Source: Phycomyces nitens
Taxonomy: Eukaryota > Mucoromycota > Mucoromycetes > Mucorales > Phycomycetaceae
Direction: 5' to 3'
DNA: 64,000 bases
NCBI GenBank assembly: GCA_022702545.1
Contig: JAHRBC010000007.1
Coordinates: 310,001 to 374,000, forward strand
The notes under the pieces were generated by a model. It searched no databases. It had not been told where the DNA came from and worked only from the letters and a program-made list of their open reading frames with translations. A program made the translations under genes and the position numbers. Shown piece after piece: positions 7,442 to 52,207 of this stretch (within the stretch, counting starts at the first letter, position 1; every line of letters begins with the position of its first letter).

Positions 7442-8420
7442 ATGGTATGCTCTTTATCATTGTCATGTTAGCTTGAAACACCAATTTACGTAACAGGCTC
7501 TCCAGATTCTATACAAAATTGTCGTTCTTGGTGATGGTGGCGTAGGAAAGGTAAAAGGGTGTTATGGGTGGATTAAGTTGATCTGGTATAAACATCATCT
7601 CCATTCAATCTCTCTTGACCTAGACGGCACTGACAATACAGGCAAGTGTCTATGGTTATTTTGACACAAAAAAAAAGAGCCTTACAAATAACCAACTACT
7701 TTATACACTTCTTAGCTGTGCTTGAATCATTTTGTTGGTGAGTGGTACAAAAGTGTTGTAATGATTTGGGTTTTTTTTGGGTTTTGTTTTTTGTTTTGTT
7801 TGATATTAAAGATATTTGGTATATGTATAAATCCTAATATTAGAGGTATGTTTTTGTACATTGAGTCTTGTAATCTGAATATTAATAACCATTATAGACA
7901 TACGACCCAACAATCGAAGATTCTTACCGCAAGCAGGTTGTGATTGACGATCACCCATGTGTGCTCGAGGTTCTCGACACAGCAGGTCAAGGCAAGTAAG
8001 CGGTTTTTGTGGCCCAAAGACACCATTCTGACTCTTAATCTAGAGGAATACACCGCATTACGCGATCAGTGGATCCGTGATGGTGAGGGGTTCTTGTTGG
8101 TCTATTCAATCACAACGCGCTCGACTTTTGAGCGTATCAGGCGCTTCCGTGACCAAATCTTTAGAGTTAAGGATCTTGATAATGTGCCGATTATTCTGGT
8201 TGGCAACAAATGTGACAAGGTGGCCCAGAGAGAAGTGTCCAGAGACGAAGGCCAGGCCATGGCAAAGTCGTTCAATTGCGAATTTATTGAAACATCGGCC
8301 AAGACATGTGTCAATGTGGAACGGTCTTTCTACTCCGTTGTCAGAATAATTCGAGCCTCACGCATGGGCACAACTGGAACCGAGGGAAAAAAGCAAAGAA
8401 AGAAATGCCTTTTTCTCTAA
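7442..8420 (+). CDS. Ras-family small GTPase, prenylated
   Basis: A membrane-anchored GTP/GDP switch. Proposed exons: 7442-7444 (ATG only), 7497-7550, 7624-7641, 7716-7737, 7844-7845, 7898-7991 and 8044-8420, giving 189 aa. All G boxes are visible: GDGGVGK|T (G1, split by an intron), switch [29 protein letters not shown] (Gln61 equivalent kept), NKCD and ETSAK. The tail [10 protein letters not shown] is a polybasic stretch plus a CaaX box; the terminal Leu favours geranylgeranylation. Introns 3 (from 7642) and 6 (from 7992) need GC donors (both GCAAGT). A 2-nt exon, AG at 7844-7845, is needed to read [11 protein letters not shown] in frame. The ATG-only first exon is the weakest part of the model. 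The sequence lies between the Ras and Rap/Rsr1 groups, so I do not name a subfamily. Confidence 0.92.
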
Positions 8421-30792: not shown

Positions 30793-32493
30793 ATGTCTCC
30801 TCCCCACAACGATACCTACCCTGCCCCTGCCTCTGGCTCTGCTTCTGCACCCACCCCTCCTCCTCTCTTCAAAGTGAGCTCTCCCAACGTCGAGTACACT
30901 GACTCCCACATCCAATCCAAGTACACCTACACCAACACCATCGTCTCCAAGAAGCCCGATGGCAGCCTTGTCGCCGAACCCGTCGAACAGGCCTTCCAGT
31001 TCAAGACCGAGCGCACTGTTCCCCGCGTTGGGTAAGTTTTTTTTTGGTTGATAAATGTCATGGGCTAACGTTCTCATAGTTTGATGATGGTCGGTTGGGG
31101 TGGTAACAATGGTACTACTCTCACTGCCTCTATCCTCGCCCACAAGCGCAACATTACCTGGCGCACCAAGTCTGGTGTCCAGACCCCCAACTACTTTGGT
31201 TCTCTCACCCAGGCCTCTACCGTCCGTCTTGGTGTAAGTGCCGAGGGTGAAGACATCTACGTTCCCTTGTCCCAGATGCTCCCCATGGTTAACCCCACCG
31301 ATCTTGTTATTGGTGGATGGGATATCTCCGGTCTTTCCATTGGTGATGCCATGGAGCGTGCTCAGGTGCTTGAGTACGACCTCCAGCGTCAGGTCCGCGA
31401 CGAATTGGCTGCCCTCAAGCCCTTGCCTTCCATCTACTACCCCGACTTTATTGCCGCTAACCAGTCGGATCGTGCTGACAATTTGTTGCCTGGCAACGAC
31501 AAGCGCCAGCACTGCGACAAGATCCGTAAAGACATTCGTGACTTCAAGACCGCCAACAGCCTCGACAAGGTTGTTGTTGTCTGGACCGCCAACACCGAGC
31601 GTTATGCTGATCTTATCGACGGTGTCAATGATACTCCCGAGAACTTCTTGGCTGCCGTAGCTTCCTCCCACCCCGAGGTTGCTCCTTCTTCCATCTTTGC
31701 TTTGGCTTGTATCGAAGAAGGCGTTCCATTTATCAACGGTTCTCCCCAGAACACCTTTGTGCCTGGTCTTTTGGCCTTGGCCGAGCGTGAGCGTGCCTTT
31801 ATCGGTGGTGATGATTTCAAGTCCGGCCAGACCAAGTTCAAGTCGGCCATTGTTGACTTTCTCGTGAACGCTGGTATCAAACCAGTCGCAATCACCTCGT
31901 ACAACCACTTGGGTAACAACGACGGTAAGAACCTGTCGTCGCACAAGCAGTTCCGCTCCAAGGAAATCTCCAAGTCCACAGTTGTGGATGATATGGTTGC
32001 CGCCAACCACTTGCTCTACAAGAAGGACGAACACCCCGATCACACTGTTGTGATCAAGTATGTTCCTTCCGTTGGTGATTCCAAGCGTGCCCTGGATGAG
32101 TATGAGTGTGATATCTTTATGGCCGGCCGTCAGTCCATCTCCATCTACAACATTTGCGAGGACTCCTTCTTGGCCTCTCCTTTGATCATCGATCTTGTTG
32201 TTATGGCTGAACTGATGACCCGTATCGAATACAAGACTGGAAACATGACAAAGTACAGCCGTTTCCAGAGTGTTCTCTCCATCTTGAGTTGTAAGTAAAG
32301 TTTTATTTGGTTAGATGCGCCTACTGACTGACTGTTTATCCTAGACATGCTCAAGGCTCCCCTTGTCACTCCTGGCACTCCTGTTGTCAATGCTCTCGGC
32401 AGACAGCGTTCTGCTATTGAGAACCTTTTCAGAGCCTGTGTTGGTTTGGCTCCCAACAACGAGATGGGTTTGGAACACAAGATCTGGAAGTAG
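30793..32493 (+). CDS. INO1: Myo-inositol-1-phosphate synthase
   Basis: It converts glucose-6-phosphate to inositol-3-phosphate with bound NAD+, the committed step for phosphatidylinositol. Three exons, 30793-31031, 31080-32290 and 32345-32493; 532 aa. The Rossmann nucleotide motif appears as [20 protein letters not shown], followed by the family blocks [80 protein letters not shown] and the lysine-rich active-site region around [10 protein letters not shown]. The ATG is the first in a frame that starts about 80 residues before the Gly-rich loop; its Pro/Ala/Ser-rich beginning is not conserved. Codon bias indicates strong expression. It converges on the Get4 gene, with 211 bp between stops. 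Confidence 0.98.
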
Positions 32494-49790: not shown

Positions 49791-52207
49791 TTATTCATTG
49801 TAAATAGGTGGCTGGTTTTGGATAACCTTTTCCTGGATTCTGCGAGCCTCTTGTAACTTGGTCTGGAGTTGGGCAGACGCAGAATCGATCCATTGGAGCG
49901 AAGACAGATGAGAATTGAGGATCTTGACAACCTGTCCAACAGCATCTTCATCATTGTCTTCAGTGCCCTCGGGCTGGCTAGCAATACCCATTTGGTTAAT
50001 CTCCTCAATCATCACATTAAGGTTACGGTTGACATCGTCCAGCTGGCTGTTGACATTCTCTGCAACACCATAGGCATTTTCGCGTGTCAAATCAGCAGGC
50101 AAGAGAGAGTGCTGGACATAACCAGAGTCCATTGCATTCTGAAGCTGCTTCTCATAGTCATCCAACACACGGCTCAATTCGTCTTGGTGGCGATCGACCA
50201 AGTGCATCGTGTTGTCAATCTCGGAAAGAGACACTTCTACCTGACTCATGCTTCCATACAATTCGTTGATCTATTTACAATAAAATCCAGTTTTGGTATC
50301 ACATCACACATCACACATCACATTCAATTTGGGATCTTCAAAACTTACTGCTGAGCCATTCACAATCAATTGACGATCCCATTCAGACACTTGGGCAGCC
50401 TTTTTGTGGAATTCATTAGTCTGCTTGGTGAGCTCAGTTGTCCACATGTTCAGAATCTCCTCCATTGTCATGTTCTTCAATGATGAAGGGGTCTGGACAG
50501 TTACTTGGGTAGCAGGTGTGGTGGTTGTGGCAGAAACGGCAGGTTGGGTAGTCAGTGTAGGCACAGCAGCACCAAGAGTTGTGGGAGCTAAGATAAACAA
50601 TGTAAATTATCAATTATCCATTACTTTCCATTAGACAATGACTTGGACTCACTAGCACTAGAGGTGGCTGGTTTGGCACCAAATGAGAAACCACCGCCCA
50701 ATGAAGCAGCAGGAGCAGCCGACGAAGCAGCGGCAGCAGCGGCAGTGGCACCAAAGCCAGTGGCGCTGAAACCAGTGGCGGGTGCGGCTCCACCAAACGA
50801 GAAACCTCCAGCGGAAGTGGCTGGGGCTGCAGAGGCACCAAAAGACAGGCTGGCGGCGGGTGTGCTGGTTGCAGGAGCTGCCGCAGACGAAGCACCAAAT
50901 GAAAACCCTCCGGGAGCAGGTGCGCCACCGAATAGACTGCTAGAAGGTGTGCTGGCGGCGGGTGTGGCAGCGGCAGCGGGTGTGGAGGCAGCGCCAAATC
51001 CACCAAATCCTCCAGCAGCAGCGGCAGGAGCAGAAGCAGGTGTTGCGGCAGGAGCAGCAGAAGATCCACCGAAACCACCAAATCCTCCAGCAGCGGGTTT
51101 GGCAGCATTACCGAAACCTCCAAATCCACCAGTAGCGGGTGTGGGTGTGGCGCCGAATCCACCGGCAGCGGGTGTAGCAGCTGGGGCAGCATTACCGAAA
51201 CCTCCAAATCCTCCAGCAGTAGGAACAGCAGCAGGGGCAGCGGCACCACCGAATCCTCCGAATCCTCCAGCAGCAGGAGCGGCGGCTGGTGCGGCAGAAG
51301 CTCCACCAAATCCACCGAAACCTCCAGCAGCGGGTGTGGCAGCTGGGGCAGCATTACCGAATCCTCCAAATCCTCCAGCAGCAGGAGCAGCACCAGCAGC
51401 TGGGGCAGCAGCACCACCGAATCCTCCGAATCCTCCAGCAGCAGGAGCAGCGGCCGGAGCAGCGGCTGGAGCAGCAGAAGCACCACCGAATCCACCAAAT
51501 CCTCCAGCAGCGGGTGTGGCAGCGGGAGCAGCACCACCAAATCCACCAAATCCTCCAGCAGCAGGAGCAGGAGCAGCATTACCGAATCCACCGAATCCTC
51601 CAGCAGCAGGAGCAGGGGCAGCACTACCGAATCCTCCAGCAGCGGGTGCAGCGGGTGCACCACCAAACGAAAATCCTCCAGCAGCAGGAGCTCCGGCGGC
51701 GGGGGCAGCAGCGTTGCCAAACGAGAATCCACCAGCCTGGGGTTGGCCGAATCCTCCAGCAGCGGGTGCAGCAGGTGCACCACCAGCGTCTAATACAATA
51801 CAGCACAACAACAATGGTAAATAAATAAAATTCACGCCAGATTTGTTGGTTTGTCTGGTATTCTGTTTCCAATTTCTGACAAGTATACTCAATTGAAGAG
51901 TGTCCTCATTGATGAGTAGATTTCTAAAAGATAATCATTTAGGAATCAAACATACTTTGGGCACCAAATCCACCAAATCCACCAGCTGCTGGTTTATTTG
52001 CGTTGTTTCCGAATGAAAATGCTGCGGAATTTTGAGGAAAGGAATTAAGGATGATAATACAAAAAAAATACAGTGATTTGGTCAATATGCTGTTTGTTGA
52101 AAGGATTCATGGGTAGTTGTGGATTGACAGCGATGGGTCAATTATATTTTTTGAGTTTTTTGGGCCATTGTTCTCTAAACATCAGCCTTATCTATCAAAT
52201 TACCCAT
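49791..52207 (-). CDS. NSP1: FG nucleoporin Nsp1/Nup62
   Basis: A central-channel nucleoporin. Exons: 52207-52204 (start, inferred), 52021-51956, 51789-50653, 50587-50349 and 50270-49791; 641 aa. The first 400 residues are FG repeats (GGFGGFG, FSFG) separated by Ala/Pro spacers, forming the selective barrier. The C-terminal coiled-coil domain fits Nsp1_C: SLKNMTMEEILNMWTTELTK, VSEWDRQLIVNGSAINELYG, VEVSLSEIDNTMHLVDRHQD. It partners Nup57/Nup49 and Nup82 in yeast. The exon 3 donor is GTGAGT at 50652, which puts both halves in frame. The proposed first exon has only ATG plus one base (ATGG|GTAATT); it joins to give MAFSFGNNANKP, plausible but unproven. The repeat DNA is itself repetitive, so length may vary. 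Confidence 0.93.

Follow-up and report, generated by a model that had tools for sequence, protein, structure and literature searches.

A probable two-nucleotide exon at the effector loop of Ras2-type genes in Phycomyces nitens

A Ras2-type gene of the fungus Phycomyces nitens very probably contains a constitutive exon of just two nucleotides, AG, lying between two ordinary small introns; judged from genomic sequence and predicted proteins, this reading is given a probability of about 0.95. The two bases (positions 7844-7845, plus strand) would supply bases 2 and 3 of the codon for Glu30, just ahead of the effector core YDPTIED, which puts it within the effector loop of a central switch in signalling. 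(Coordinates are those of the window, the whole stretch of 64,000 nucleotides that was analysed; it covers 310001-374000 of contig 9, in a genome of 49 Mb in 11 contigs. Slashes within motifs mark exon boundaries or, in proteins, joins.)

The gene and its reading frame

The gene lies entirely on the plus strand. Its first coding exon (7442-7444) is the ATG alone, which is required for an exact match to the public protein P0002 (MILYK...), and is followed by intron 1 (7445-7505, GTATGC...CTCCAG). Exon 2 (7506-7550) encodes the P-loop in its 15 residues, and exon 3 (7624-7641, 18 nt) encodes TALTIQ; the next intron (7642-7715) has GC-AG ends and begins GCAAGT. Exon 4 (7716-7737, 22 nt) encodes LCLNHFV and base 1 of the Glu codon, reading CATTTTGTTG up to the GTGAGT of intron A (7738-7843, 106 nt, GTGAGT...TATTAG). 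The AG, counted as exon 5, completes GAG and is followed by intron B (7846-7897, 52 nt, GTATGT...TTATAG). Exon 6 (7898-7991; 31 residues and one nucleotide) begins ACATACGAC; a further intron with GC-AG ends (7992-8043, GCAAGT...ATCTAG) separates it from the last exon (8044-8420), which finishes with the CAAX-like end KKCLFL and the stop codon. (Two minor features: two of this gene's six introns have GC-AG ends, both with GCAAGT, at places where the paralogs have GT; and the start codon makes up the whole coding part of exon 1, ATG/GTATGC, in the window gene only, the ATG being joined to exon 2 in the paralog models.)

Spliced with the AG, the model is a Ras protein of 186 residues, identical at 186/186 to P0002, which NCBI names a small GTPase and assigns to Phycomyces nitens (Mucorales), and which is possibly the product of homology-guided gene prediction rather than of a transcript. 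The window protein matches Pfam PF00071 (Ras; 8.3e-58), possesses P-loop, switch I, NKxD and C-terminal CAAX-like box, and finds "Ras2" as the name of many of its top named matches (among the best 120 of 7320). By these features of sequence, the gene is a fungal Ras2-type GTPase. An earlier note on this DNA had called it a Ras-family gene, an assignment that stands and can be narrowed to the Ras2 type, with the ATG at 7442-7444 as exon 1 and exon 2 from 7506, in accord with P0002. The same note saw a match to Ras and Rap proteins residue for residue; this is true for fungal Ras2 (FVET) and fails for other genes of the same genome, those with FVDE, which we take to be Ras1-type, and those with FVEK or FVER, presumably Rap-like.

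Why should so small an exon be needed? The letters and coordinates of the exon 4 donor (GTGAGT at 7738), of the exon start ACA TAC GAC after ATTATAG, and of TATTAG/AG/GTATGT in the gap between them, with AG at 7844-7845, are exactly as the earlier note gave them. Leaving out the AG does shift the frame, as it said: the direct join of 7737 to 7898 reaches a stop after 45 residues. Its further claim, that inserting AG makes GAG and yields a conserved Ras protein, is borne out by the identity with P0002 and by a scan for joins that use one intron (of at least 30 nt, with GT/GC-AG or AT-AC ends, donor within 7716-7897, acceptor up to 7929): 47 such joins stay in frame through the rest of the protein, and FVETYDPT comes from none of the 47. 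With candidate exons limited to 1-20 nt and at least 40 nt of intron required on each side, AG is the sole candidate of length 3n+2 in the gap; three candidates in other frames, of 7, 12 and 13 nt, exist within the same limits. Both introns flanking the AG have canonical GT-AG ends, and the chance of finding YAG/AG/GTR so placed in this gap is P = 0.0022 (20,000 shuffles). The two-nucleotide exon is supported as the only canonical solution found that would yield the conserved protein.

Four paralogs and their tree

Ras-family sequence is found at 122 places in the genome by Pfam search, and all four of the Ras2-type genes found there share TAG/AG/GTA. In the three paralogs the same AG falls in the same codon (L008, 1305-1306; L010, 1247-1248; L014, 1221-1222), within the common pattern GTN-G, intron, AG, intron, ACN-TAY-GAY; the contexts, in that order of genes, are TTTAG/AG/GTAATA, TGTAG/AG/GTAATA and TATAG/AG/GTATGC. 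The introns on either side are of GT-AG type and 52-63 nt long, and in each of the three gaps the AG is the only exon candidate between 1 and 20 nt long, whatever its frame, under the limits applied to the gap in the window gene. The Glu codon is GAG in all four genes, and the product of their four shuffle probabilities is 7e-12. The model of L014 equals another public P. nitens protein, P0012, at 192/192 residues (possibly a homology-guided prediction as well). Introns A and B have no convincing similarity among the paralogs in 12 comparisons (six pairs, 300 shuffles per comparison), the best of which beat about 88% of shuffles. An exon kept in four genes so diverged is presumably one that the spliceosome handles reliably.

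Five other Ras-type genes (L001, L004, L005, L015 and L030) have the site inside one exon, with no intron, and thereby fix the register FV-x-x-YDPT. A fifth Ras2 gene was not found by motif in 30 loci drawn from the Pfam search (both strands) and 17 further regions; a six-frame search of the genome with the exon 6 peptide hit the four Ras2 genes and three other places, seven in all.

In a tree of 53 rows, built without Ras1 rows, the window gene groups with Ras2 of P. blakesleeanus (98/87), inside a set of nine rows (95/80) that also takes in Spinellus, Pilobolus, Rhizopus, Mucor and Helicostylum. L010 and L014 belong to a second set, of 15 rows (100/100), with Radiomyces, Spinellus, P. blakesleeanus, Mucor, Rhizopus and Lichtheimia among others, and L008 is a long branch of unsure placement. 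The duplication behind the two sets seems, from this branching, to be older than the split of these genera. Since the AG exon is present in both sets it would, if inherited, be at least as old as the duplication, and it is probably older than the species.

Traces in protein models, and competing readings

Predicted proteins of other fungi carry what look like scars at the same place. A search with the intact protein gave 7320 matches; of the best 120, 39 are broken at the AG junction or next to it (38 if P0004 is set aside, which is continuous across the junction and faulty upstream of it). In about one third of the public Ras2-type proteins that match best, switch I or the segment ahead of it is partly missing or garbled. 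All 39 are among the 91 NCBI-named proteins of this best 120, the other 52 being intact models in which a correctly annotated tiny exon and a site with no intron look the same. The junction motif is kept by 29 of 29 non-NCBI proteins (from the same search, best 120 of 7320, together with one that used a broken query), and the difference between NCBI-named and non-NCBI proteins is marked, with the proviso that the sources may differ in taxa (Fisher test, p = 1.3e-7). The non-NCBI proteins come from source contigs mostly near 1 kb, three exceeding 10 kb, and we infer that they are mostly transcripts.

What do the broken models look like? Two of them, P0056 and P0073, served as queries in two added searches, which enriches for broken models and leaves 39/120 as the unbiased figure. 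The forms were counted in 132 proteins (the intact-query search and one with a broken query) by regular expressions that are rough. The commonest named form is HF/TYDP, with Val-Glu missing (13/132); TIQ/TYDP, with 24 nt missing, accounts for 8 and GK/TYDP, with 42 nt missing, for 5. Read-through of the donor (NHFVG...) is seen in 7 models, NHFVEVN in 2 and a join inside the next exon in 3, and 12 are disrupted in other ways. Forcing single-intron splicing on the window DNA gives HF/TYDP (donor after 7733) and FV/DSYRK (7737 to 7920), the latter found in one public model, P0086; the reproduction of public forms indicates that such errors would arise when a predictor that does not allow tiny exons meets this architecture.

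Some models bear on the splice sites themselves. The NHFVGKCIC of P0024 (Mucor circinelloides) implies GTN-GGN-AAR, which fits a G/GTAAG donor after base 1 of the Glu codon; NHFVEVN, in P0054 (Lichtheimia ornata) and P0114 (Mucor velutinosus), implies GAR-GTN-AAY, which fits a donor right after the AG and is equally explained by a fused GAG exon. Inconsistent annotation shows directly in Rhizophagus irregularis, whose entries P0027 and P0051 agree in 205 of 207 columns and differ only in that one has Val-Glu and the other lacks it. Of two Rhizophlyctis rosea entries (176/187 columns identical), one contains the eight residues LCLNHFVE and the other does not.

As a control, other junctions were compared in 115 NCBI-named proteins, pooled from the intact-query search and the two with broken queries. 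The motif at the place of the window gene's exon 6/7 junction is absent in one protein and that of the AG junction in 52; the motifs of the two upstream junctions are absent in 17 and 26 proteins, and 13 of the 17 and 22 of the 26 fail at the AG junction too. In the same comparison 34 of 36 non-NCBI proteins match the AG junction. One of the two misses, P0140, has a substitution (FMDG); the other, P0136, begins with unrelated sequence and resembles a reading frame taken from genomic DNA. (Another technical note: P0004, disrupted in the form count, is intact in this control, and P0025 has a substitution only at the junction, not a disruption.)

How do other explanations fare against these results? 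The one that is compatible with the AG exon takes the skipped forms at face value: skipping of exon 4 with the AG, in frame, or of the AG alone, with a frameshift, would be a regulated off switch for Ras2. Exons 4-5 sum to 24 nt (22 + 2) and exons 3-5 to 42 nt (18 + 22 + 2), so that joint skipping keeps the frame, and such forms make up 8 and 5 of the 132 models. They are, however, confined to NCBI-named models (0 of 29 from other sources) and therefore look like prediction errors; regulated skipping is accordingly considered unlikely. The second explanation dispenses with the exon and postulates one intron running to 7898 from a canonical donor moved back to follow 7733, within the Val codon, at the cost of both Val and Glu. 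It keeps the frame and gives exactly the form seen in 13 of 132 public models; but it removes two residues of switch I, and its donor, GTTGGT, is poor by the usual consensus next to the GTGAGT four bases on. The matching public P. nitens protein has VE, the 29 non-NCBI proteins all keep the motif, and R. irregularis is listed both ways in otherwise identical proteins. We regard a shifted donor as very improbable; a cDNA reading GTTGAGACA at the junction is what it would not give.

Less credible again is a single intron cut at a non-canonical 3' end two bases early, which leaves the final AG of the intron as exon sequence before ACA and in this way also makes GAG. Such a cut implies intron ends that are inconsistent across the four paralogs (AT, AT, CC, TT), and it leaves the internal TAG/AG/GTA of all four genes unexplained. 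That the assembly has lost two bases at the end of exon 4, making a tiny exon needless, can be dismissed almost outright: small indels are a common error in some assemblies, but the same gap exists at four separate loci, and the read-through in P0024 implies the same donor place in another species.

Three further constructions were rejected. A longer exon of 3n+2 nucleotides fails for want of any candidate but AG within 1-20 nt that leaves at least 40 nt of intron on each side; a stwintron fails because the two introns are each complete and have two coding bases between them. Ratchet points are not known to leave bases in the mRNA; a zero-nucleotide recursive splice site is rejected here, where the sequence is AG/AG/GT and the zero-base option breaks the frame.

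Splicing, precedents and age

How might an exon of two bases be spliced? Only two bases separate the intron A acceptor from the intron B donor, and the two could hardly both be occupied at once, given the size of splicing complexes. With splice sites that overlap to this degree, the introns would probably be removed consecutively, by intron definition. Removal of intron A would join G to AG and leave GAG/GTATGT as the donor of intron B; since intron A itself ends in G, that donor would read GAG/GT whether or not the first step has taken place. Within the AGAG tandem it is the first AG that would have to be used; the second AG, or skipping of the exon, would lead to the frameshifted 45-residue product. 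GAG acceptors are generally disfavoured, and as the second AG of TAGAG is one of these the frame would be protected. The use of GAG, and not GAA, in all four genes is what one expects if the donor favours a terminal AG. Splicing in vivo in this way, constitutive use and the order of the steps are what the sequence leads us to infer. Branch points were listed with a crude, hand-made set of motifs and a minimum distance that hides very close sites. By this listing the signal in intron A of the window copy is weak, with its best match 40 nt upstream, while CTAAT at 7834-7838 lies just under the allowed distance; intron B of L008 has no good match.

That exons can be as short as a single nucleotide is already known. 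The plant genes APC11 and VPS55 contain single-nucleotide exons, demonstrated by RT-PCR and RNA-seq (PMC4674806, PMC8831610), and for APC11 of Arabidopsis the authors propose intron definition with recursive splicing (PMC4674806). The plant exons resemble the Ras2 AG in being ultra-short, lodged between two introns, required for the frame and missing from annotation, and they are conserved across diverse land plants (PMC4674806, PMC8831610); they differ in being of 1 nt and in plants, while the Ras2 exon is of 2 nt, fungal, in switch I and known here from sequence. Another known case is the single-nucleotide exon of CYP621A in P450s of the Fusarium group, which was likewise found in fungi through frame and a protein motif conserved in orthologs, with a doubled intron length as a hint, and was confirmed by SRA reads (PMC12940212). 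It is again of 1 nt and comes with reads; the Ras2 exon occurs in four paralogs and probably in several phyla. The same paper cites exons of 2-5 bp for Arabidopsis, Drosophila and humans (PMC12940212), and the wording "exon of 2 bp" occurs in another (PMC8760474).

Fungal stwintrons also consist of two closely linked U2 introns removed in consecutive reactions (PMC5639578, PMC12403724), but in a [D] stwintron the internal intron splits the outer donor and leaves no exon (PMC5639578), whereas Ras2 would keep two coding bases. The ratchet points of recursive splicing share the juxtaposed acceptor and donor, with a donor at the junction after the first splice, and lie in long introns (PMC8605326); the Ras2 introns are both short, and the AG is retained. 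A study of ras2 expression in Mucoromycotina uses neither "exon" nor "intron" in its main text (PMC5705715), and no report of a 2-nt Ras2 exon was found among titles and abstract openings, a coverage that stops short of subscription papers and deposited gene records. What is new is the likely age of the Ras2 AG exon and the misannotation across the family.

How old might it be? HF/TYDP or skipped models come from Podila (Mortierellomycota), Gigaspora (Glomeromycota), Piptocephalis (Zoopagomycota), Rhizophlyctis (Chytridiomycota) and Violaceomyces (Basidiomycota; the one smut relative among the sources of broken models) as well as Mucorales. Further genera with such models, whose placement we take as given, are Rhizophagus, Glomus, Geosiphon, Martensiomyces, Basidiobolus, Powellomyces, Piromyces and Umbelopsis. 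Conversely, nine of nine named models examined that we take to be ascomycete (P0139, P0143-P0145, P0147, P0149-P0152) are intact, as are several basidiomycete ones; in these the exons have likely fused. Genome and viral contig collections yielded no relatives that would give Ras2 DNA of other fungi, by an alignment whose patterns partly span exon junctions and then by post-junction peptides. Broken models in several phyla point to an ancient exon. That the AG exon was present in the common ancestor of most fungal phyla, has since been kept with both flanking introns in many lineages, and is the cause of effector-loop mispredictions of Ras2 across fungal databases is a proposal we moderately favour; if true, the Ras2 AG exon would rank with the smallest and oldest known exons. 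The broken models would mislead alignments, structure predictions and expression constructs, and the exon itself offers a compact, testable case of the ordered processing of overlapping splice sites and of the error-free reading of an AGAG tandem acceptor.

Some minor observations concern the rest of the window; an Rfam scan of the window as a whole gave no match. A plus-strand frame of 409 residues at 31069-32298, with an antisense frame of 509 residues opposite, looks like inositol-3-phosphate synthase. Long, GC-rich repetitive frames are open on both strands at 50592-51934; the minus-strand one, with its GGFGGFG/GFSFG repeats (here the slash separates two repeat types), looks like an FG-repeat nucleoporin.
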